The position numbers and the translations under genes were made by a program. A DNA stretch of 28,395 bases from a virus, in IMG/VR virus record IMGVR_UViG_3300034071_000435, positions 1-28,395 of that record, one strand, 5' to 3'. The notes under the pieces are model-generated. The model was not told the origin of the DNA, made no database searches, and worked only from the letters and a program-made list of their open reading frames with translations. This document shows positions 1,443 to 24,447 of this stretch, in pieces. Each line of letters opens with the position of its first letter. Positions within the stretch are counted from its first letter, which is position 1.

Positions 1443-2561
1443 TTAAAGTTTATTGAGGGCGTTTGTTAATTGTTGCCCGATTAATAAGACAGTAGGGCGC
1501 GGGTCAGATTCGTGCGCCATTGTACTGCCAGAAGATACCACTGCGACAACATCATCCGGCATGGGCAGTTTCAGAGCCTTTAATTTCTTCTCTGCCTGTG
1601 CCGGCGAAACTAATTTGGAATCGTAGATGTCATCATTTGTCAGACCAAGAGCCAAAAGCGACTCTACCGCTTCTGATTCATTAGTCCATTTTCTTGTCCC
1701 CCGCTTTGCAACAAGTTTGTAGTTAGGGACTGGTTTGCCCGCTTCAAGCATTTGAAACGCTAATGCTCTCAAATCGGTAATCCATTGTTCCAGAATTTCC
1801 GCTTGTTGTAAATAGTTTGCAATAGATTCTGCATCAATATTATCGAGCGTTGCCTTCAGCGCCCTATCTACCTCACCTGTCATTAACGGACAAGTTGGTT
1901 TAGCCGCGCACCACTTGCAGTGTTTGCCACTGGCTAATGGCGCATTAGGTGTTTCAGACAAATCGATAGCTTTCTTAAGCGTTTTCTCAAACTCACGAAT
2001 GCGTTTAGCAGTAGTTTTCCAGCGTTTGACCGACGGAGGCTGAACAATCACAAGTTCAATAGACGCCGCGCCATCAAACACCCATTCTAACCCTTTTGTG
2101 CGCATAGCGGCGGCGGCGTAGAACATGAGCTGCTCGTTCTCCTCTACTTCTACACTAACACCACTGCCAAATTTCCAGTCAAGAATAACAGCGCGGTCCC
2201 CAAGTCTACCGATAAGGTCAACGCTACCAAACACGTCAGGCAAGAAATCACCGTAGCTTACATTAGCTTCAACGGTAAACTCCATCGATTTAGAAGGGTC
2301 AATTTCATCAAGCGCCGCCAGCGCCGGTTCAATCTTTTCCTTTGCCAACTCAGTCGTCATATCAATACCTGCATACGACAAACTGTAAATGTTAAAGTTA
2401 TCCTCAGTGAGTAGTTTTTCCATTGCAAGGTGGCAAAGCGTCCCTTCATCGGCATACGATGATGATGGTTTAGGTGGCATTTGTTGCACCAGCTTAACAC
2501 TGGCAGGACACGCGATAACACGTTTGGCGGTGCTACCGCCGGCGATACTTGAGTGGCTCAT
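1443..2561 (-). CDS. PD-(D/E)XK nuclease, DUF2800 / Cas4-AddB-like
   Basis: A 372-residue RecB-family nuclease, probably processing DNA ends in phage recombination or replication. Visible motifs: E39-G-T-x-x-H44 (RecB/Cas4 His region), G111-x-x-D114 with D127-W-K129 (catalytic D...DxK), and Q143-x-x-x-Y147 (Q-x3-Y). Four cysteines sit as in AddB/Cas4 iron-staple nucleases: C18 near the N-terminus and C214-x2-C217-x5-C223 after the catalytic core, predicted to hold a 4Fe-4S cluster. The C-terminal 150 residues look helical. The ATG at 2559-2561 overlaps the stop of the 39-codon gene upstream (ATGA) and uses AAGGAAG inside it as ribosome site. Family call is from motifs and is strong; the Fe-S cluster is inferred from spacing. 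A DNA-end-processing role fits its place beside the polymerase. Confidence 0.85.
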   Translation of the reverse strand: MSHSSIAGGSTAKRVIACPASVKLVQQMPPKPSSSYADEGTLCHLAMEKLLTEDNFNIYSLSYAGIDMTTELAKEKIEPALAALDEIDPSKSMEFTVEANVSYGDFLPDVFGSVDLIGRLGDRAVILDWKFGSGVSVEVEENEQLMFYAAAAMRTKGLEWVFDGAASIELVIVQPPSVKRWKTTAKRIREFEKTLKKAIDLSETPNAPLASGKHCKWCAAKPTCPLMTGEVDRALKATLDNIDAESIANYLQQAEILEQWITDLRALAFQMLEAGKPVPNYKLVAKRGTRKWTNESEAVESLLALGLTNDDIYDSKLVSPAQAEKKLKALKLPMPDDVVAVVSSGSTMAHESDPRPTVLLIGQQLTNALNKL

Positions 2562-3391: not shown

Positions 3392-3667
3392 ATGTTAGAA
3401 AAAGACATCGAAAAATATTTAGTAAAAGTCGTCAAAGAAATGGGCGGCAAATCGTATAAGTTCACCTCTCCAGCGTGTCGGGGAGTGGCAGATAGAATTG
3501 TATGTTTACCAAATGGGACTACATGGTTTATTGAGCTTAAAACCGCAGGTGGCAGTCTGTCAGCACTGCAAAAAGTCTTTGCATCAGATATGAGCAAACT
3601 TAATCAAAAGTACGCTTGTCTTTGGAGCAAAGAAGATATTAACAACTGGAGAGAGAACAATGTTTGA
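3392..3667 (+). CDS. VRR-NUC domain nuclease
   Basis: A 91-residue stand-alone VRR-NUC nuclease of the PD-(D/E)XK superfamily, as found in many phages and in the human FAN1 C-terminal domain. Diagnostic features: an N-terminal helix with E3/E7, the segment SPACRGVADRIVC (GV-x-D-R-I, D34), F46-I-E48-L-K50-T (the ExK catalytic pair), and G-x-L-S-x-x-Q (G53 to Q60). Small VRR-NUC proteins cut Holliday junctions or flaps, so a role in resolving replication or packaging intermediates is likely. First gene of the rightward operon. There is no ribosome site before its ATG. The following gene starts inside its last codons (8-nt overlap). Confidence 0.92.
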   Translation: MLEKDIEKYLVKVVKEMGGKSYKFTSPACRGVADRIVCLPNGTTWFIELKTAGGSLSALQKVFASDMSKLNQKYACLWSKEDINNWRENNV

Positions 3668-3806
3668 ATTTTTACACTACCTTGATGAAAGCAATTTGGC
3701 ATACCTTATTATGCTGTTTTGTTTCTTGCTAATGACGCGTTTGCACCTCAACGCTGTTGCTGAAATTACACGTCTTCGTAAAATTATGAAGCAGGTGGCA
3801 AGATGA
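3660..3806 (+). CDS. 48-residue single-pass membrane protein
   Basis: ATG at 3660-3662 lies inside the end of the nuclease gene with GAGAG just upstream; the TGA (3804-3806) overlaps the next ATG. The peptide has a short acidic N-terminus, one hydrophobic segment (LAYLIMLFCFLLM, about 13-25), and a basic C-terminus with TRLRKIMKQVAR, so an N-out/C-in inner-membrane protein is expected. No family recognised. Small membrane proteins in phage early operons sometimes act on host membrane or superinfection functions, but nothing here shows that. Confidence 0.7.
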   Translation: MFEFLHYLDESNLAYLIMLFCFLLMTRLHLNAVAEITRLRKIMKQVAR

Positions 3807-3988
3807 AAGATAAACTTCCACACTACCAAGACGGGCTGCGTCAAAACTTACCAAAAAACTTAAACGAAATTACTCATGTATTAGGTGGCGACAACGGCTC
3901 AGGTAAACCCAATGCAGTGATGGTTGCGTATAACACATACCAAGAACGTGAACGCCAAGACTGGGCAAGACTTTTAGGAGGGTTTTAA
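3803..3988 (+). CDS. 61-residue hypothetical protein
   Basis: Soluble, polar protein beginning MKDKLPHYQDGLRQNLPKN. It contains a G/N-rich turn HVLGGDNGSGKPNA (about 25-38) and a helical C-terminus with YQERERQDWARLLGGF. The GDNGSGKP stretch superficially resembles a P-loop but lacks the GxxxxGK[ST] pattern, so no nucleotide binding is claimed. ATGA overlap upstream; one base separates its stop from the next ATG, and its last codons hold that gene's strong GGAGGG ribosome site. Function unknown. Confidence 0.7.
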   Translation: MKDKLPHYQDGLRQNLPKNLNEITHVLGGDNGSGKPNAVMVAYNTYQERERQDWARLLGGF

Positions 3989-3989
3989 A

Positions 3990-4238
3990 ATGAGCGCAAC
4001 TTTACTACTTACTTTGAGCTTCCTTACTGTCGATACCAACATCGACAAGCGCGGCAGAACAACACAGGTTGAGCGCATTGCCTACACAACAACGGCAATA
4101 CCTTATGACACGCGCCAAGCATGCGTTAACGCTAAAGAAGAATGGCAGTTTGCTGTTGGTGCTTACCAGATGTCAAAACGCCCTGCGCGGGTGATTATGG
4201 CGGTGTGTAATGATAGTGCAACGGGAGTGGTAGAATGA
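3990..4238 (+). CDS. 82-residue hypothetical protein, possibly exported
   Basis: Starts MSATLLLTLSFLTVDTN, a hydrophobic stretch that could be a short signal peptide or buried strand, though it lacks an N-terminal positive charge. The rest is a small beta/alpha domain with two cysteines (C45, C73) that could pair if the protein reaches the periplasm. Similar short exported proteins with two cysteines are frequent in phage early regions, but no function is known to me. A strong Shine-Dalgarno (GGAGGG) ends 7 bases before the ATG. The stop overlaps the next start by 4 nt. Confidence 0.68.
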   Translation: MSATLLLTLSFLTVDTNIDKRGRTTQVERIAYTTTAIPYDTRQACVNAKEEWQFAVGAYQMSKRPARVIMAVCNDSATGVVE

Positions 4239-4735
4239 GCTTACTAACACAAAAACAACTAGAAGAAATACAAAATTTTCATGATGACATTGGTGAATGT
4301 ACTGAACCGCACGAGGAATGTTTTATAAAAAAATTGATTAAATGGAACGAAAAACAATCCGCTATGCCTAATCAAGAGGTTTCACCAGTTGGTTATCTAT
4401 ATAAGCAGAAAGATTGTTATGGCGGAATTCAAACAGTGTTTAGCTTTGATAAGCCTTATATCACATGGCATACCGTTACAGATGTTATTCCTGTTTACAC
4501 AGCACCACCAAAGCGTGAGCCACCAATTACATCGCGTGAGATGTATCAAAGAGGTTACGCAGCGGCAGAGCGTGATTTAAATCGTAAGCCTTTGAGTATA
4601 GATTGGGCTGAAGCCCCAGAAAACACCGCAATAGCAAAAGTAGCTTTATTTTGGGTAACTGAAGATAATTTGATGCTTGGGCGAAAAGATTTGGCGTCAA
4701 TTGAAAAGCCTGTAAATGGAGCAGATGGTGACTGA
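4235..4735 (+). CDS. 166-residue hypothetical protein with PVYTAPP motif
   Basis: The N-terminal 40 residues are charged and helical (EEIQNFHDDIGECTEPHEECF). The central part V50 to about P90 (SPVGYLYKQKDCYGG...DVIPVYTAPPKR) matches a motif repeated in many uncharacterised phage proteins of the Ea22/DUF551-associated type, typically read as 'VGYLY...IPLYTAPP'. A helical stretch SREMYQRGYAAAERDL follows, and the C-terminus (SIDWAEAPENTAIAKVALFWV) resembles DUF551-like 'W..APE.A..A.....W' repeats. Role unknown. It overlaps the next gene by up to 20 nt. Confidence 0.7.
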   Translation: MSLLTQKQLEEIQNFHDDIGECTEPHEECFIKKLIKWNEKQSAMPNQEVSPVGYLYKQKDCYGGIQTVFSFDKPYITWHTVTDVIPVYTAPPKREPPITSREMYQRGYAAAERDLNRKPLSIDWAEAPENTAIAKVALFWVTEDNLMLGRKDLASIEKPVNGADGD

Positions 4736-4928
4736 AATAACCTTAAAAGCCTACTGCGCGGCACATAAAGTTAGCCGCACCAGTATGGACTATCACATCG
4801 TTAAGATGGGGGTATATCCTGCCGGCAGCATAAGATTATCTGAAGCAGGCGCACCTTCATTCTTGTGGCGCGTTAAAGATTTAGACAAAGCCAGACTTAG
4901 ACTTGGCATTAGAGGGAATGGAAAATGA
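4716..4928 (+). CDS. 70-residue helix-turn-helix-like protein
   Basis: Sequence LKAYCAAHKVSRTSMDYHIVKMGVYPAG has the spacing of a winged-helix or MerR/excisionase-type DNA-binding helix-turn-helix, followed by a basic C-terminus (RLRLGIRGNGK). Possible early regulator, and so a candidate for binding the direct repeats at 3351-3376; this link is speculation. Start is uncertain: the ATG at 4716 gives the longest form but has no ribosome site, the ATG at 4725 has GGAG only 3 nt away, and the GTG at 4728 has GGAG at an ideal 6-nt spacing. The last choice would give a 66-residue protein starting fMet-TEITLKAY. Confidence 0.65.
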   Translation: MEQMVTEITLKAYCAAHKVSRTSMDYHIVKMGVYPAGSIRLSEAGAPSFLWRVKDLDKARLRLGIRGNGK

Positions 4929-5125
4929 AAGATGAATTATTTTATATCGCTATTGGCGCGTTCTTGATTGGCGCTATTGCATCAACGTTGACAATTTACG
5001 CCACGCACAGACATTATTACGAAATCACGAAGACAACTATTGGTGAATTCATCATTCACGACGGACGCATCTACTCAGTGTATGAAATGGAAAGAAATGT
5101 TCGTGGGGAGATGATAGCAAAATGA
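4925..5125 (+). CDS. 66-residue single-pass membrane protein
   Basis: One strongly hydrophobic helix near the N-terminus (FYIAIGAFLIGAIASTLTIYA, about 6-26) followed by a polar domain of about 40 residues with short beta segments (TIGEFIIHDGRIYSVYEM). Basic residues after the helix (ATHRHYY) suggest the C-terminal part is cytoplasmic. ATGA overlaps on both sides place it firmly in the operon. No family recognised. Confidence 0.7.
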   Translation: MKDELFYIAIGAFLIGAIASTLTIYATHRHYYEITKTTIGEFIIHDGRIYSVYEMERNVRGEMIAK

Positions 5126-5853
5126 TTCATTACCACGGAACGCCTATTGGCGGAACACGCCAAGATGTAGCACGGTTTTTAGTTGGCCGCCATGCTTTAA
5201 TCCCTTTTGGTAGGCAAGATGATACAGGCGCAGTTTTAGAATTTTGCCAATCGTTTGTGCTAGATAATGGCGCATTTAGTCATTGGAAAAAAGGGCATGG
5301 CGCAATTGATTTTGATGCGTATCTGGCTTGGGCGCAATCACTGTGCAAACACCCATCTTTTGACTGGGCGTTAATACCAGATATTATTGATGGAACAGAA
5401 GAAGATAATAGAGATTGGGTATTAAAATGGATTAGAACAGGAACAAAGGCAAAAGGCGTTCCTGTGTGGCATCTGCACGAATCTTTTGAGTATCTCGAAT
5501 GGCTTATTGATTGTTTTGAAATTGTAGCGTTAGGTAGTAGTGGAGATTATGCAACACCAAACACTAAAAAATGGTGGGGCAGGATGTCTGACGTAATGAA
5601 TGTTGTTACAGATAGCCAAGGCAGACCAAAGTGCAAATTACACGGGTTGCGTATGCTTAACCCAAAAGTGTTTACTAAACTGCCGTTATCGTCAGCAGAT
5701 TCAACTAATGCCGCTGTTAATTGTGGCTCACTTGATAGATTTGGAATTTACAAGCCTGCCACAGCAGCTCAGAGAGCAGCGGTAATTGCAGACAGAATCG
5801 AGCAGCATAACAGTGCCCCGTTTTGGTCGGTAGAAACGCTAGCAGAGGATTAA
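5122..5853 (+). CDS. dpdA: DpdA-like TGT-superfamily enzyme (7-deazaguanine DNA modification)
   Basis: A 243-residue TIM-barrel protein related to tRNA-guanine transglycosylase and matching the short phage DpdA-type proteins, which exchange guanine in DNA for a 7-deazaguanine base such as preQ0. Motifs in order: N-terminal HYHGTPIGG; F-V-L-D48-N-G-A-F (equivalent of the TGT 'DSGGF' substrate-binding Asp); F80-DWALIPD87-IIDGTEEDN; VPVWHLHES (113-121); VALGSSGDY (135-143, like the TGT glycine loop); WW-x-RM; HGLRMLNPKVF (174-184); and LPLSSAD193-STNAA, where D193 is the likely nucleophile. It lacks the C-terminal zinc site of bacterial TGT, as phage DpdA proteins do. No genes for preQ0 synthesis (folE, queD, queE, queC) are in the window, so the base would come from the host or from genes outside. 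ATGA overlap upstream. Family call good; activity on DNA inferred from the family. Confidence 0.8.
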   Translation: MIHYHGTPIGGTRQDVARFLVGRHALIPFGRQDDTGAVLEFCQSFVLDNGAFSHWKKGHGAIDFDAYLAWAQSLCKHPSFDWALIPDIIDGTEEDNRDWVLKWIRTGTKAKGVPVWHLHESFEYLEWLIDCFEIVALGSSGDYATPNTKKWWGRMSDVMNVVTDSQGRPKCKLHGLRMLNPKVFTKLPLSSADSTNAAVNCGSLDRFGIYKPATAAQRAAVIADRIEQHNSAPFWSVETLAED

Positions 5854-5855
5854 AA

Positions 5856-5990
5856 ATGACTAAAGACGAACTTTATAAACGCCTGACGATGGCGCAGAAA
5901 AACAAAAAGGAATTGAAGAAAATTAAACTTCAACTCCTCAAAGAAATCGAGCAACTGAAGTTAATGCTGAGAGCATTGGAGGAAGGGTAA
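5856..5990 (+). CDS. 44-residue coiled-coil peptide
   Basis: ATG at 5856 follows the DpdA-like stop by two bases; GAGG upstream acts as ribosome site. The peptide is almost entirely a charged helix (MTKDELYKRLTMAQKNKKEL then KKIKLQLLKEIEQLKLMLRA) with leucines in heptad spacing, so a homodimeric coiled coil is likely. Its final codons (GGAGGAAGGG) supply a very strong Shine-Dalgarno for the next gene, which starts within its stop (TAATG). Function unknown. Confidence 0.7.
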   Translation: MTKDELYKRLTMAQKNKKELKKIKLQLLKEIEQLKLMLRALEEG

Positions 5991-6216: not shown

Positions 6217-6446
6217 ACATTTCACAGATTTTTATTGGCTTGTCACCATTTTTAAAAGACAGATTTACAAGCGAAGTATTTACGCTTGGGCTAATTAACG
6301 AGCTAAACGAGCAACGCTTTCGTGCTAGATGCCGGCGCCTGATACGTCAGCACAACGGCGAAACGCGCAAGCTATACAAAGCACTAAACAATTTAACAAT
6401 GAATGACAGACTGCGGTTTTTTGATGTGGTGAGCGGACATGAATGA
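6213..6446 (+). CDS. 77-residue basic hypothetical protein
   Basis: A helical protein with a hydrophobic start (MNISQIFIGLSPFLKDRF) and a strongly basic middle (EQRFRARCRRLIRQHNGETR, about 33-52), ending in NNLTMNDRLRFFDVVSGHE. The basic helix could bind nucleic acid. ATGA overlap upstream and an 8-nt overlap downstream. An alternative frame open from 6107 to 6298 is rejected because it conflicts with two better supported genes. Function unknown. Confidence 0.68.
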   Translation: MNISQIFIGLSPFLKDRFTSEVFTLGLINELNEQRFRARCRRLIRQHNGETRKLYKALNNLTMNDRLRFFDVVSGHE

Positions 6447-7026
6447 CAAAGATTTAGATATAGTAAGAGAAGCGGTAAAGTACAACAGCGTGACCGGACA
6501 CTTTTACAAAGGCGGCGCATCTACACCTGCTGCGCTTAACTGGAAAAACAAAAACGCAACAATTAACGTTAAAAAGAGTGGGCTACACTCTAACTTTTTA
6601 GCGTGGAAGGTTGCGGTGTTTTTAGCCTACGGTTGGTATCCAGCGCATACTGACGCGGTAGAGTATTTAGATGACAATCCGACTAATTTGCGCATCAGCA
6701 ATATTAGGGTCATTAAAGCCTCTGAAGACGAGATGACCATGATTGACTTTTGCGACGAAAACGATTTGCGCTACCCCAGCGTGTCGGCGCTTATGCGCGG
6801 TGAGCCGTTTACCCGCCGAGTAGAAAACGGGTATTCAAGAGCGTATTTTAGCAAGAGCTTACTGGAAGCAAATTGCGCCAAATTGCTTGCTAAAAAACTT
6901 CGCGATGAAGAAATTAGAGAAAAGCCTAAAAAGCGTCCGATGGGCAGACGCCGAAATGAACATTTTATGCAATTCTTGAGAACGCACACTATCGTGCCTA
7001 AAGGTTGGGAGATGACGCTATGCTAA
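6439..7026 (+). CDS. HNH-like protein with degenerate catalytic residues
   Basis: 195 residues. The first 100 follow the layout of phage HNH endonucleases of the HNH_3/AP2 type: F/Y-x-x-x-T-G-x-F-Y-K near residue 16-24, an LAW-x-x-A-x-F-L-x-YGWYP segment (about 54-68), and a D-D-N-P-T-N-L-R-I-S-N-I-R-V segment (about 78-91). The usual 'DHIDGN' is here EYLDDN and the His normally before LAW is N, so both key histidines are missing and nuclease activity is unlikely. The C-terminal part has a possible helix-turn-helix (DFCDENDLRYPSVSALMRGEP) and a basic stretch (EKPKKRPMGRRRNEHF). It may be a DNA-binding protein derived from a homing endonuclease. Overlaps both neighbours. Confidence 0.7.
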   Translation: MNDKDLDIVREAVKYNSVTGHFYKGGASTPAALNWKNKNATINVKKSGLHSNFLAWKVAVFLAYGWYPAHTDAVEYLDDNPTNLRISNIRVIKASEDEMTMIDFCDENDLRYPSVSALMRGEPFTRRVENGYSRAYFSKSLLEANCAKLLAKKLRDEEIREKPKKRPMGRRRNEHFMQFLRTHTIVPKGWEMTLC

Positions 7027-7259
7027 AAGGCGACTCAGTACACGCAGGCGACCCCGTAGACGCGCCAGCGCACTATCAAGGTAACAAAATGCAGTGCATC
7101 GACGCAATGGAGGCAATGCTAAGTGTTGATGAATTCAGAGGGTATTTGCGTGGTAATGTTTTTAAGTACCAATGGCGTTTTAGAGATAAAGGTGGGCTTG
7201 AAGACTTGCGCAAAGCACGGTGGTATTTAGACAGACTAATCAAATTGGAGAATTTCTAA
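7020..7259 (+). CDS. DUF3310 family protein
   Basis: 79 residues, full length for the family. Characteristic sequence: DPVDAPAHYQGNKMQCIDAM, then EFRGYLRGNVFKYQWRFRDK and GGLEDLRKARWYLDRLIKLE. DUF3310 proteins occur in early regions of very many phages and are often labelled nucleotide kinase-like without experimental proof; the biochemical role is unknown. The ATG at 7020 has GGGAG (7007-7011) at 8 nt; an upstream in-frame TTG at 7005 has no such site and is rejected. The start lies inside the last codons of the HNH-like gene and the stop overlaps the next ATG (TAATG). Confidence 0.9.
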   Translation: MLKGDSVHAGDPVDAPAHYQGNKMQCIDAMEAMLSVDEFRGYLRGNVFKYQWRFRDKGGLEDLRKARWYLDRLIKLENF

Positions 7260-7420
7260 TGTACGCATTTAAAGGCTATCCAGTAGACCAAGACCCAACC
7301 ATCAAAGCGCTACGCGGCGAGGACATGGAAAACTACATGAATTTGCTTAAATGGTTAGACACTGTGCCGTTTATCCCTTTGAAGGTAAGCGACATTGTGT
7401 TGCCTTGGCGGGATAGATGA
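7259..7420 (+). CDS. 53-residue hypothetical protein
   Basis: Starts at the ATG of a TAATG junction with GGAG (7247-7250) upstream. The peptide MYAFKGYPVDQDPTIKALRG leads into a helical C-terminal half (EDMENYMNLLKWLDTVPFIPLKVSDIVLPW). A longer reading from 7220 would need an unsupported non-ATG start inside the DUF3310 gene and is rejected. No family recognised. Its TGA overlaps the next ATG. Confidence 0.68.
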   Translation: MYAFKGYPVDQDPTIKALRGEDMENYMNLLKWLDTVPFIPLKVSDIVLPWRDR

Positions 7421-7800
7421 AACCAAAGCTCAAAACGATGAATGGGGTGTGGATATGCTACACCCCTTGCTGCTCCATCCCGATGATGGCAGACCACCCC
7501 AAAACGGCGTATTTAAGATGGAAATTTATTAATGCTAAGACCCAACCAGATAGAAGCTGTTGCCTTTTTGAGCCAAATAGACAAAGGGATGATTCTTGCC
7601 CCAGTGGGGGCAGGCAAGACAGCAATAACACTGACAGCCATGAAAGAGGCGCTCGACACGGGCAGAGCACGTCGGTTCTTAGTGATAGCGCCAAAGCGTG
7701 TCTGCACGGACGTGTGGACGATAGAGCCGGCGAAGTGGGCACCAAGTCTGACAGTATCTATCGCCGTTGGCTCGCTAAATCAGCGTCTAGCGGCATTTGA
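7417..7800 (+). CDS. Small phage protein with unusually long C-terminal overlap of the helicase
   Basis: ATG at 7417 overlaps the previous stop (ATGA). The first 40 codons (MKPKLKTMNGVWICYTPCC...TAYLRWKFIN) look like a familiar class of 40-55 residue phage proteins that start 'MKPKLK...G.W.C' and end soon after an 'AY..W' motif. Here no stop follows, and the frame stays open for 269 nt inside the helicase gene, adding an arginine/serine-rich tail of about 89 residues with no recognisable fold (QPDRSCCLFEPNRQRDDS...). The tail is probably non-functional read-through after stop loss, but an overprinted product cannot be excluded. Start well supported, 3' boundary as given by the frame. Confidence 0.55.
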   Translation: MKPKLKTMNGVWICYTPCCSIPMMADHPKTAYLRWKFINAKTQPDRSCCLFEPNRQRDDSCPSGGRQDSNNTDSHERGARHGQSTSVLSDSAKACLHGRVDDRAGEVGTKSDSIYRRWLAKSASSGI

Positions 7801-8818
7801 CGCGCCTGCGCAGGTGGTTGTGACTAATTACGATACCCTTCAAACGCTACCGCCATTGTCTAAATTTGATGGCGTGGTGTTTGACGAGTTGACTGTTTTG
7901 AAGAACCCATCAGGCAAGCGCTTCAAAGCGCTGTTTGCGCGTATCAAAGATTTCAAGATTAAGTGGGGGCTTACCGGTTCGTTTACCAGTAACGGACTTG
8001 AGGACGTGTTTGGGCAATGCAAGATAGTGGACGCATCGCTACTTGGTAAGTCCAAAACCGCCTTTCTTCAGACATATTTTGTGCTACTCAATAAAGACTT
8101 TGGTGAATGGGTAGCCAAGTCCACTTCACTGCGTGACGTCATGGCGGAAATTAAACCCGCAACGTACCTTATCGACACGCAAGAGTACATGGACACTTTG
8201 CCCCCGCTTAACATCGTGCCAGTCAAATGCGCAATGGATATGAAGCAATACGGTGAGATGAAGAAAGACTTTGTGGTGTACTACGAAGACAAAGAAATCA
8301 TTGCGGTTAACGCCGCCGTAGTGGTCAACAAACTGCAACAAATGGCTAGCGGGTTCTCCTACATTGAAGGACACCCTACCACATGGTTCTCGCGCCACAA
8401 GTTTGACCGGCTTGACGAAATACTGGCAGAAAACCAACACGCGAACACCATTATCGTGTACAACTTTCAAGCAGAGCTTGAAGAACTTAAACGCCGATAC
8501 CCAAACGCGCGGACAATCGACCAGCAAGGCGTCATCTCGTCGTGGAACGCAGGGCGAGTGGAATTGCTACTGGTTCACCCTAAATCAGCAGGGCATGGGC
8601 TAAATCTTCAATTTGGCGGCAGTAAAATGGTCTTCCTGTCGCTTCCTTGGTCACTTGATAGATATGAGCAGACCATCGGACGGTTGCACCGTAGTGGACA
8701 AAAGAGCGCCGTATATTGCTATGTACTGCTAACAGATAAAACCGTAGACGAGCGCATATTCGCAAGTCTGCATGACAAACGCGCAATCTCAGATATTGCC
8801 TTAGAGGAATTAAAATGA
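7532..8818 (+). CDS. SNF2-type DEAD/DEAH helicase
   Basis: A 428-residue superfamily 2 helicase/translocase, a common component of phage replication modules. Seen in order: Q-motif region LRPNQIEAV (2-10); Walker A APVGAGKT (23-30); motif Ia VIAPKRVC (51-58); motif II V-V-F-D118-E119-L-T; motif III GLTGSF; C-terminal domain with motif V (SAGHGLNLQFG) and motif VI QTIGRLHRSGQK (380-391), the RSGQ form being typical of SNF2 proteins. About the length of compact phage SNF2 helicases; no extra nuclease domain. Starts MLRPNQ, as usual for the family; ribosome site is weak (GGAAA), and the start lies inside the preceding open frame, suggesting translational coupling. Likely unwinds or remodels DNA during replication or recombination. 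Confidence 0.92.
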   Translation: MLRPNQIEAVAFLSQIDKGMILAPVGAGKTAITLTAMKEALDTGRARRFLVIAPKRVCTDVWTIEPAKWAPSLTVSIAVGSLNQRLAAFDAPAQVVVTNYDTLQTLPPLSKFDGVVFDELTVLKNPSGKRFKALFARIKDFKIKWGLTGSFTSNGLEDVFGQCKIVDASLLGKSKTAFLQTYFVLLNKDFGEWVAKSTSLRDVMAEIKPATYLIDTQEYMDTLPPLNIVPVKCAMDMKQYGEMKKDFVVYYEDKEIIAVNAAVVVNKLQQMASGFSYIEGHPTTWFSRHKFDRLDEILAENQHANTIIVYNFQAELEELKRRYPNARTIDQQGVISSWNAGRVELLLVHPKSAGHGLNLQFGGSKMVFLSLPWSLDRYEQTIGRLHRSGQKSAVYCYVLLTDKTVDERIFASLHDKRAISDIALEELK

Positions 8819-18951: not shown

Positions 18952-19359
18952 TTATCTTAAAAATCGGCATTGCTCTTTGGTCATGGAAAAGAGCCATAAG
19001 TCGCCATTATACCCTGCGTCTTTAATTATATGCTCACATACAAACCCTGCATTTATTGCAAACCGAATACACTTTTCATTATCCGCTTGAATAGGCGCTA
19101 TTATCTTTTTAACTTTTAGCTCTATAAAAGGATAGTGAAAAGCATACCATCGTATTTCTTTATTTCCTCTACCTTCTACTGCAATATGAAGGTGTATCGA
19201 CCCTTCCTCTATTAAGTTATTATACATAAAGACAACGTTTATCTCGTCTTTATGCTCAAGCGCTATGTAGACTGCGCTTTCATCGTTGCAGTATTTTTTA
19301 CCTTGTTTTTTAGCTATCCATTGACCGCATCTTTCTGACTGGTCAACTATAATTTTCAT
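18952..19359 (-). CDS. GNAT acetyltransferase-like virion protein
   Basis: 135 residues with a GNAT-like fold: beta strands NVVFMYNNLIEEGSIHLHIA and a C-terminal half WYAFHYPFIELKVKKIIAPI then QADNEKCIRFAINAGFVCEH and GYNGDLWLFSM. The 'N..C..FA...GF' segment matches the acceptor side of GNAT enzymes, but the acetyl-CoA pyrophosphate loop (Q/R-x-x-G-x-G/A) is absent, so catalysis is doubtful. Such proteins regularly lie between the tail nozzle and the internal virion genes in podophages and are believed to be structural. Overlaps the tail protein gene (TAATG). Confidence 0.75.
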   Translation of the reverse strand: MKIIVDQSERCGQWIAKKQGKKYCNDESAVYIALEHKDEINVVFMYNNLIEEGSIHLHIAVEGRGNKEIRWYAFHYPFIELKVKKIIAPIQADNEKCIRFAINAGFVCEHIIKDAGYNGDLWLFSMTKEQCRFLR

Positions 19360-20926: not shown

Positions 20927-21403
20927 CTATTTAACATGTTTCCAAGTTCTTCCTTTTTCTATTCCCCTAATAGCTGAAGGACTTACGCCATAATCGGCTG
21001 CTATTGTTGAACACGACTCGTTTACTGCAAGCCTTGCTCTAATAGCGGGAATATCGTTTTCGTGCAACTTAGCGTCAGGTTGATTAGAGCCTTTTACAGT
21101 TACTCTACGGCCTTTTGCAACCATATCAGCTACATTATCAGCTACTGTACCATGTTTTAAATGCGCAGGGTTAACGCAATTTGGTCTATCGCAACTGTGC
21201 ATTATAACCCCTGTCATCTCAATATCAGGGTTATGGTGCTTAAACATTTCTCTGTGAATAAAGACATTTTTGCCGTCTTTACCTATTCTGCCATACCCAT
21301 CATGATTACGGCAGCCCATAAACAAATGGCACCCGTTTTCATCTATTACAACGTGTTTAGCTATTCTGTCCCAAAAAGTTTCGTGTCTATACGGTCTTGC
21401 CAT
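20927..21403 (-). CDS. Free-standing HNH homing endonuclease
   Basis: 158 residues. An HNH_3-type nuclease: GCHLFMGCRNHDGYGRIG (24-41), V-F-I-H50-R-E, then V-I-M-H69-S-C-D-R-P-N-C-V-N78-P-A-H81-L, the three HNH residues; C71 and C76 are usual companions. GTVADNVADMVAKGR follows, and a C-terminal helix-turn-helix (SCSTIAADYGVSPSAIRGIE, about 130-149) provides DNA binding. Inserted between two tail genes, in the same direction, with its own strong promoter and a GGAG site 9 nt before the ATG. Catalytic residues intact, so probably active and mobile. Not required for virion assembly by family knowledge. Confidence 0.92.
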   Translation of the reverse strand: MARPYRHETFWDRIAKHVVIDENGCHLFMGCRNHDGYGRIGKDGKNVFIHREMFKHHNPDIEMTGVIMHSCDRPNCVNPAHLKHGTVADNVADMVAKGRRVTVKGSNQPDAKLHENDIPAIRARLAVNESCSTIAADYGVSPSAIRGIEKGRTWKHVK

Positions 21404-23448: not shown

Positions 23449-24447
23449 CTAGGTTGTGCTGAATGTTGCGTTGAATTGCGCACCAGAACAGGTTAACGCG
23501 CCAGAGAAGCCCATTAAGCGAACAATCGCGTCTTGGTTAACTGCTTGACGGTCGCCGCCGATTGGCACGAAATTACGGTCTTTGTGAGGACGGAAGTACA
23601 CATATTTTGTGTTAATAAAGTCCATACGAGTTGCAGTTTGGTTGCCGCCGATACCGCCACCAAGTACAACGTCAGCAGAGCCAGCGCCGCCGTAGAATTT
23701 CAACGCAGAGAAACCTGCCGCGCCTAATTTATCGTCAGTGATACGTTGGATTGCCTGCAAAGACGCTAAGTAAAGCGAATAGGCGGTTGAGCCTGCATAA
23801 ATTAAATCAACATGGTCTGTGCCACGAACAACTGATAACGCGACAGTGTTCATGCTGTTTTGAATGTTAGCCGCTGTTGCCGCTGCGCCAGTCAAACCAG
23901 TTGAAGTGTACGCGCCATTACGCCAGAAAGTCCATGTAGCACGGTCAATACCGCCGTAAGTACCTGTACTTGGTGAAGTGCTAATCATAGCCGCTAAACC
24001 AACTAAGTTTTTACCTGCGTTGCCTGTACCGTCACCATGTAAATCGATGTCGATTTTGTTGTTAAGTCTTGCTTCAGCAATTTCAACACGGGTAGCAAGC
24101 AATTCAATCATTGCTTCTTTGCCGCTGTTAGCAAGCATTTCAGGGCCAGAAATCGTTACAGCATCCGCATAATGTTTCAAATTGAACTGTGCAGCACTGA
24201 TTGGAGAATCAGGTGAAATGTTGATAGTTTCGTAACCGCTATAGCTTGACGCATAGTTGGTTGAAGGGTCGTTATAAAACAATTCTTGCAAAATGGTTGA
24301 ACCACCGCTAATTGTTTTTACGTTACCGCGTTCTTTCAAACGAAGTAATAACGCGTTGTTGTTTGTTAAGTTATCTTGAGCCGATTTGGTACGGCTTTCG
24401 ATGGTGGTTGCGATAATGTCACTAATCGCGCTGTTTGCAAATGCCAT
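23449..24447 (-). CDS. Major capsid protein (HK97 fold)
   Basis: 332 residues. Start MAFANSAISDIIATTIESRT, then LLLRLKERGNVKTISGGSTI (N-arm and start of E-loop region), ELFYNDPSTNYASSYSGYET, and QFNLKHYADAVTISGPEMLA, a pattern of a widespread phage capsid family in which 'K.....V..SG.E...N.G' precedes the spine helix (EAMIELLATRVEIAEARLNN). A-domain and P-domain follow (VVRGTDHVDLIYAGSTAYSL; DFINTKYVYFRPHKDRNFVP), ending with the tail MGFSGALTCSGAQFNATF. Same length as homologues; position after the scaffold gene confirms the role. GAGG ribosome site. Confidence 0.92.
   Translation of the reverse strand: MAFANSAISDIIATTIESRTKSAQDNLTNNNALLLRLKERGNVKTISGGSTILQELFYNDPSTNYASSYSGYETINISPDSPISAAQFNLKHYADAVTISGPEMLANSGKEAMIELLATRVEIAEARLNNKIDIDLHGDGTGNAGKNLVGLAAMISTSPSTGTYGGIDRATWTFWRNGAYTSTGLTGAAATAANIQNSMNTVALSVVRGTDHVDLIYAGSTAYSLYLASLQAIQRITDDKLGAAGFSALKFYGGAGSADVVLGGGIGGNQTATRMDFINTKYVYFRPHKDRNFVPIGGDRQAVNQDAIVRLMGFSGALTCSGAQFNATFSTT

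Follow-up and report, generated by a model that had tools for sequence, protein, structure and literature searches.

The singleton DpdA proteins were described as a group by Hutinet et al., and a host or salvaged precursor is thought to supply the base that they use (PMC6884629). With 76 phages, they outnumbered every other group in the 2019 survey, where the modification status of their DNA was judged hard to predict (PMC6884629). Published measurements exist for three singleton-DpdA phages. dADG is present at 50 per million nucleotides (0.02% of G) in the DNA of Salmonella phage 7-11 (PMC6884629) and at 354 per million nucleotides (0.13% of G) in that of Pantoea phage vB_PagS_MED16 (PMC8306585); converted from these values, a double-stranded genome carries ~9 and ~33 dADG, respectively. 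The DNA of the third phage, Orion, contains no deazaguanine, as expected for a host without the precursor (PMC6884629; PMC8306585). Of the enzymes tested on MED16 DNA, only two, both Dam-sensitive, failed to cut it, and HHpred with the MED16 DpdA as query matched T. maritima TGT at 99.2% probability (PMC8306585). In Escherichia phage CAjan (Queuovirinae), a DpdA of 306 aa is encoded beside folE, queD, queE, and queC and replaces about a third of G, and deleting dpdA abolishes the modification (PMC6884629).

A singleton DpdA-type gene and the precursor supply of its carriers

The window analyzed here spans an entire IMG/VR record (28,395 bp) and may be a genome fragment. The following features are referred to below.

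1443..2561, minus strand: exonuclease gene (phrog_69), in a DNA-metabolism region
4925..5125, plus strand: ORF of 66 aa with a predicted membrane stretch, upstream flank of the slot; its TGA overlaps the ATG of the DpdA-type gene (ATGA)
5122..5853, plus strand: singleton DpdA-type gene, putative DNA-guanine transglycosylase of 243 aa (phrog_887, DpdA homology, pLDDT 89.2)
5126..5855, plus strand: exchangeable cassette; empty alleles lack it, and others have a C5-cytosine DNA methyltransferase gene in its place
5856..5990, plus strand: ORF of 44 aa, downstream flank of the slot, placed by sequence and junctions
7532..8818, plus strand: helicase gene (phrog_62), anchor for sampling

The DpdA-type ORF starts with ATG and ends with TAA. 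The TGT-type motifs attributed to its product by the original prediction are all at the named positions: VLDNGAF with D48, HLHES at 117-121, GSSG at 138-141, and LPLSSADS with D193. On the model of TGT, whose mechanism is established, D193 would act as the nucleophile and D48 would belong to the base pocket. The proposed DpdA-like identity also holds. The protein has one strong PHROG match, phrog_887 "queuine tRNA-ribosyltransferase" (E 9.8e-63), and BLASTP aligns it with the DpdA proteins of MED16 (34% identity, E 3e-41), 7-11 (32%, E 8e-32), and CAjan (26%, E 5e-16); profile-profile comparison with CAjan DpdA by hhalign gives 98.3% (E 1.5e-14, 155 columns). Judged from these similarities, it is almost certainly a homologue in the DpdA family, and it is a further member of the already known singleton DpdA group.

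MED16 gp38 (261 aa) belongs to the same family and length class, is similar to the window protein over nearly its full length, and comes from a phage that has no preQ0 genes; none was found in the window record, which may be a fragment. Unlike for the window, dADG has been shown in the DNA of MED16, which also has a Dam-type methyltransferase, and its dpdA is not known as a gene of a swap slot. Gp32 of 7-11 keeps the D48, H117, and D193 positions, again in a phage without preQ0 genes, but has several motif differences, including HSEGS for HLHES and GCMG for GSSG. CAjan DpdA is homologous but differs from the window protein in its length, in its neighboring genes, and in lacking the aspartate at D87.

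At least 592 confirmed loci in IMG/VR encode relatives of the window protein, and others are found in phage records (213) and in bacterial genomes (32 loci, mostly of Pseudomonas, also of Burkholderiales, Nitrosomonadales, Acidobacteria, and Rhizobiales). Hypothetical proteins of Pseudomonas phage Epa33 and of the P22-like Salmonella phage BTP1 are 64% and 46% identical to it, respectively; in BTP1, the homologue is located within the early genes, where it has Ea22-like and ASCH genes as neighbors. The window gene is intact and evolves under purifying selection (dN/dS 0.03-0.10 against close relatives), and the active site is intact in more than 100 relatives. The key residues, D87 included, are unchanged across 41 sequences (the window and relatives), and D48, G58, P114, H117, G138, H174, D193, and S194 are among the invariant residues of 20 sequences that span the window protein and CAjan-type DpdA. 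The absence from CAjan DpdA of D87, which is invariant in the close family, counts against the explanation favored below.

The AlphaFold2 model, whose input alignment comprised 41 sequences (window and loci), has a mean pLDDT of 89.2 and a pTM of 0.88; strands and helices alternate, and the predicted fold is a confident TIM-type barrel. The barrel fold class, the D-x-G-x-F motif, and the presumed chemistry are those of canonical bacterial TGT (PF01702). Unlike canonical TGT, the window protein is ~130 residues shorter and gives no Pfam TGT match and no significant profile match. It also lacks the zinc-binding CxCxxC...H motif, as had been anticipated: CxCxxC is present in 10/10 TGTs aligned, whereas no cysteine is conserved among the 41 relatives. 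The expected TGT fold was recovered in part. The barrel was obtained, and many of the top matches among predicted viral structures are named queuine tRNA-ribosyltransferase; the top PDB fold matches, however, are general TIM barrels (tryptophan synthase alpha and others, E ~3e-4, TM ~0.55), and the 50 listed include no canonical TGT.

Sequence comparison with TGT gives a similar picture. Scans of the window protein against Pfam, NCBIfam, and PADLOC gave no significant match, and searching PDB sequences with a single sequence and with two profiles yielded no match. The Pfam result is uninformative, because the CAjan, MED16, and 7-11 DpdA proteins also miss the Pfam TGT model. Against ten bacterial-genome TGTs, hhalign reached 0.2%, with the D-x-G-x-F stretch alone aligned. 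The CAjan-type DpdA profile did little better against TGT, so shallow profiles are likely what limits this comparison; CAjan DpdA as an IMG/VR query returned three loci only, and its profile is therefore shallow. That similarity to canonical TGT was undetected by profile and among the listed PDB matches counts against the favored explanation.

The Queuovirinae-type preQ0/archaeosine cluster is absent from the window record: QueC, QueD, and FolE have no match in its 28,395 bp, in agreement with the original prediction, or in the nearest long relative (38,890 bp). QueC was found in 0/33 long IMG/VR relatives (28-327 kb), in a search that matched the CAjan positive control, and FolE in 0/17 IMG/VR records, the window counted among them. 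QueD was missing from 32 of the 33 long relatives. Its sole match is at the very end of one contig (G010, the contig of L037, 47057-47236), ~5 kb from the DpdA relative; it is probably a host queD flanking a prophage end rather than a partner gene, and the contig end is possibly an integration site. Among 21 bacterial genomes carrying a relative, all have a full TGT match and 19 a full-length QueC match. The other two, those of Rhizobium subbaraonis (G050, locus L111) and a Devosia MAG (G054, locus L116), have short, weak QueC matches beside a full TGT, and may reflect salvage of preQ0 or preQ1, or incomplete assemblies. The suggested dependence on a host or outside precursor is supported.

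No cultured relative was matched by Megablast when 25 kb of the window served as query. The major capsid protein (23449-24447, minus strand) has at most 48% identity to those of Myxococcus phage Mx8, Stenotrophomonas phage BUCT555, and Bradyrhizobium phage ppBjS10J-1, and these relatives are too distant to indicate the host.

Exchange with a methyltransferase gene in one slot

Sister phages were sampled through an IMG/VR search with the helicase encoded 1.7 kb downstream, so that the sample was not selected for DpdA. The slot was scored as the position between the 66-aa ORF and the 44-aa ORF. In 46 newly fetched loci with both flanks, it is empty in 26, holds DpdA in 8, and holds one ORF of 436-520 aa in 12; two further matches of the helicase search with DpdA in the slot (L009 and L014) are outside this count, as they had already been found by the DpdA search. 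Eight of the 12 ORFs were scanned with Pfam and are all PF00145 C5-cytosine DNA methyltransferases (E 1e-38 to 2e-41), and the sequences of the remaining four (L144, L166, L167, and L186) repeat scanned ones. None of the 46 loci has both genes together, or any other gene type, in the slot.

The junctions are gene-exact. They read "...GTAGCAAAATGACTAAAGACG" in empty alleles, "...ATAGCAAAATGATTCATTACC ... GATTAAAAATGACTAAAGACG" in DpdA alleles, and "...GTAGCAAAATGAAATTTGG ... GTAGCAAAATGACTAAAG" in methyltransferase alleles. The 66-aa ORF is kept in 18 DpdA-bearing loci and also stands beside empty and methyltransferase alleles; in empty alleles, the ATG of the 44-aa ORF overlaps its stop. To the right of the slot, empty alleles match the window at up to 94% identity across 1.6 kb. 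On the helicase tree, the three states require at least 14 changes, a number to be read as a guide rather than an event count, since recombination blurs the tree and the starred branches by themselves require fewer (4 for DpdA). The slot argument is also limited by loci that nearly duplicate one another, with 43 of the 47 helicase rows being different.

This swap slot, with its DpdA, methyltransferase, and empty states, is a new finding; a limited literature search found no report of DpdA and a C5-methyltransferase exchanging in one slot. The exclusion holds for the slot and not for the genome, because one carrier of DpdA (L018) has a PF00145 methyltransferase elsewhere in its genome. In Epa33, a PF00145 C5-cytosine methyltransferase gene follows the DpdA homologue after 13 bp, rather than taking its place. 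A PF00145 methyltransferase cluster, seven members of which were confirmed by Pfam, occurs in the fetched flanks of ~23 DpdA relatives, as a raw count. A strict motif scan for C5-methyltransferases near relatives gave 3/112 loci and was set aside as too strict in favor of clustering with Pfam.

The exchange suggests that DpdA and the C5-methyltransferase are interchangeable tools for marking DNA, and since the alternative occupant is a DNA methyltransferase, it favors DNA over tRNA as the substrate. It thereby provides a genomic argument that singleton DpdA marks DNA, and DNA is very probably the substrate of the window protein. For the same reason, the common annotation of phrog_887-type proteins as queuine tRNA-ribosyltransferase appears to be misleading. 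That annotation would fit an extra TGT acting on host tRNA or RNA and altering wobble-base modification during infection, and so would the chemistry common to TGT and DpdA and the production of precursors by the hosts of relatives. An RNA substrate is nonetheless unlikely: the zinc motif of all ten aligned TGTs is absent, the window protein is closer to DpdA than to TGT, the slot exchanges with DNA methyltransferases, the hosts already possess TGT, and no tRNA was found in the window.

A DNA-marking role also has to be weighed against the possibility that the slot is a general cargo site, whose alternation is uninformative on function, and that DpdA is a selfish or neutral passenger in it. The gene is indeed patchy, missing from most sister loci and from 17/18 long records of capsid or helicase relatives, and adjacent variable slots carry other genes. 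However, 20/20 occupied slots hold one of two types of base-modifying enzyme, and the low dN/dS and the intact active site described above also make a mere passenger quite improbable. For the DNA-marking role, the slot offers natural alleles (DpdA, methyltransferase, and empty) in near-identical backgrounds.

Modification level and proposed function

The original prediction held that G at specific sites could become resistant to restriction if the enzyme works on DNA. Virion DNA modified enough to block restriction is not supported by the measured singleton phages, in which 0-0.13% of G is modified: blanket protection is not to be expected, because dADG is a trace component and MED16 DNA is cut by most of the tested enzymes. 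Few chosen sites and a poor precursor supply in the laboratory are both possible reasons for the low dADG, and the trace modification could also be a side activity. By analogy with these phages, modification by the window protein would probably be sparse, not bulk, and host-fed.

The least probable reading is a base-removing or base-restoring enzyme, for example one that excises a modified or deaza base from DNA and puts guanine back or leaves an abasic site, as defense or counter-defense against modified DNA; transglycosylation can in principle run in reverse, little or no modification was measured in singleton phages, and the gene is located in DNA-metabolism regions, but dADG is present in both measured phages that have close homologues and a precursor-making host, and the invariant positions show no feature that distinguishes the window protein from an inserting DpdA.

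The likely function of the window protein is deazaguanine exchange in DNA; its substrate, base, chemistry, and purpose are all deduced from the comparisons above. In the proposed mechanism, D193 would attack C1' of deoxyguanosine in phage DNA, guanine would leave, and its place would be taken by a 7-deazaguanine base (preQ0 or a derivative) that the host queuosine pathway supplies, with D48, D87, H117, and G138 placed around the base pocket. The gene itself is an exchangeable single-gene cassette, in a presumed DNA-modification slot that in sister phages holds a C5-cytosine DNA methyltransferase or nothing. Sparse modification may then allow escape from particular host nucleases or mark particular sites, and we infer that marking of chosen sites is favored, because a methyltransferase occupies the same slot in sister phages. 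It can be proposed tentatively that this site-specific marking is interchangeable with methylation, the slot holding alternative anti-restriction base modifiers of which DpdA is host-fed. If so, singleton DpdA would be a sequence-specific modifier of limited sites, with a role equivalent to that of a methyltransferase.

Other genes near DpdA relatives

The slot region has further variable positions, one of which holds a 97-aa ORF without assigned function. In some sister phages, a 206-aa methyltransferase-like protein with an NPVCTEFSF motif and no match in Pfam is encoded between the counterpart of the window's HNH-like gene (6439-7026) and the one that follows (L202 4559-5179; L198 4716-5336; L163 733-1353); this position is a second variable slot, which may likewise carry DNA-modification genes. 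At a third variable position, L188 carries a different PF00145 C5-cytosine methyltransferase (3412-4470), between the counterparts of window 7005-7259 and 7220-7420.

Pseudomonas-type relatives have an 81-aa ORF (MNIYRHTF...) immediately before DpdA, whose start is overlapped by the end of this ORF (L035 4756-5001, L089 4759-5004, and ~29 similar loci; also L141 5756-6001), and it possibly encodes a small partner protein of DpdA. In Rhizobium and Acidobacteria, DpdA relatives have PP-loop ATPase-like genes with an SGGKDS motif, possibly of PAPS-reductase type, on their upstream side (L111 3913-4992; L102 3875-4780; L104 3938-4780). ASCH-domain (PUA-like) or similar genes recur near DpdA relatives (L141 9267-9938; L142 5725-6009; L035 7967-8938; and 15 other loci, a raw count). 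PUA-like domains bind modified nucleic acids or tRNA in other systems. In the window itself, an acetyltransferase-like gene (phrog_4470; 18952-19359, minus strand) lies among the virion structural genes, and a 158-aa ORF (20927-21403, minus strand) between virion genes resembles an HNH homing endonuclease by eye.
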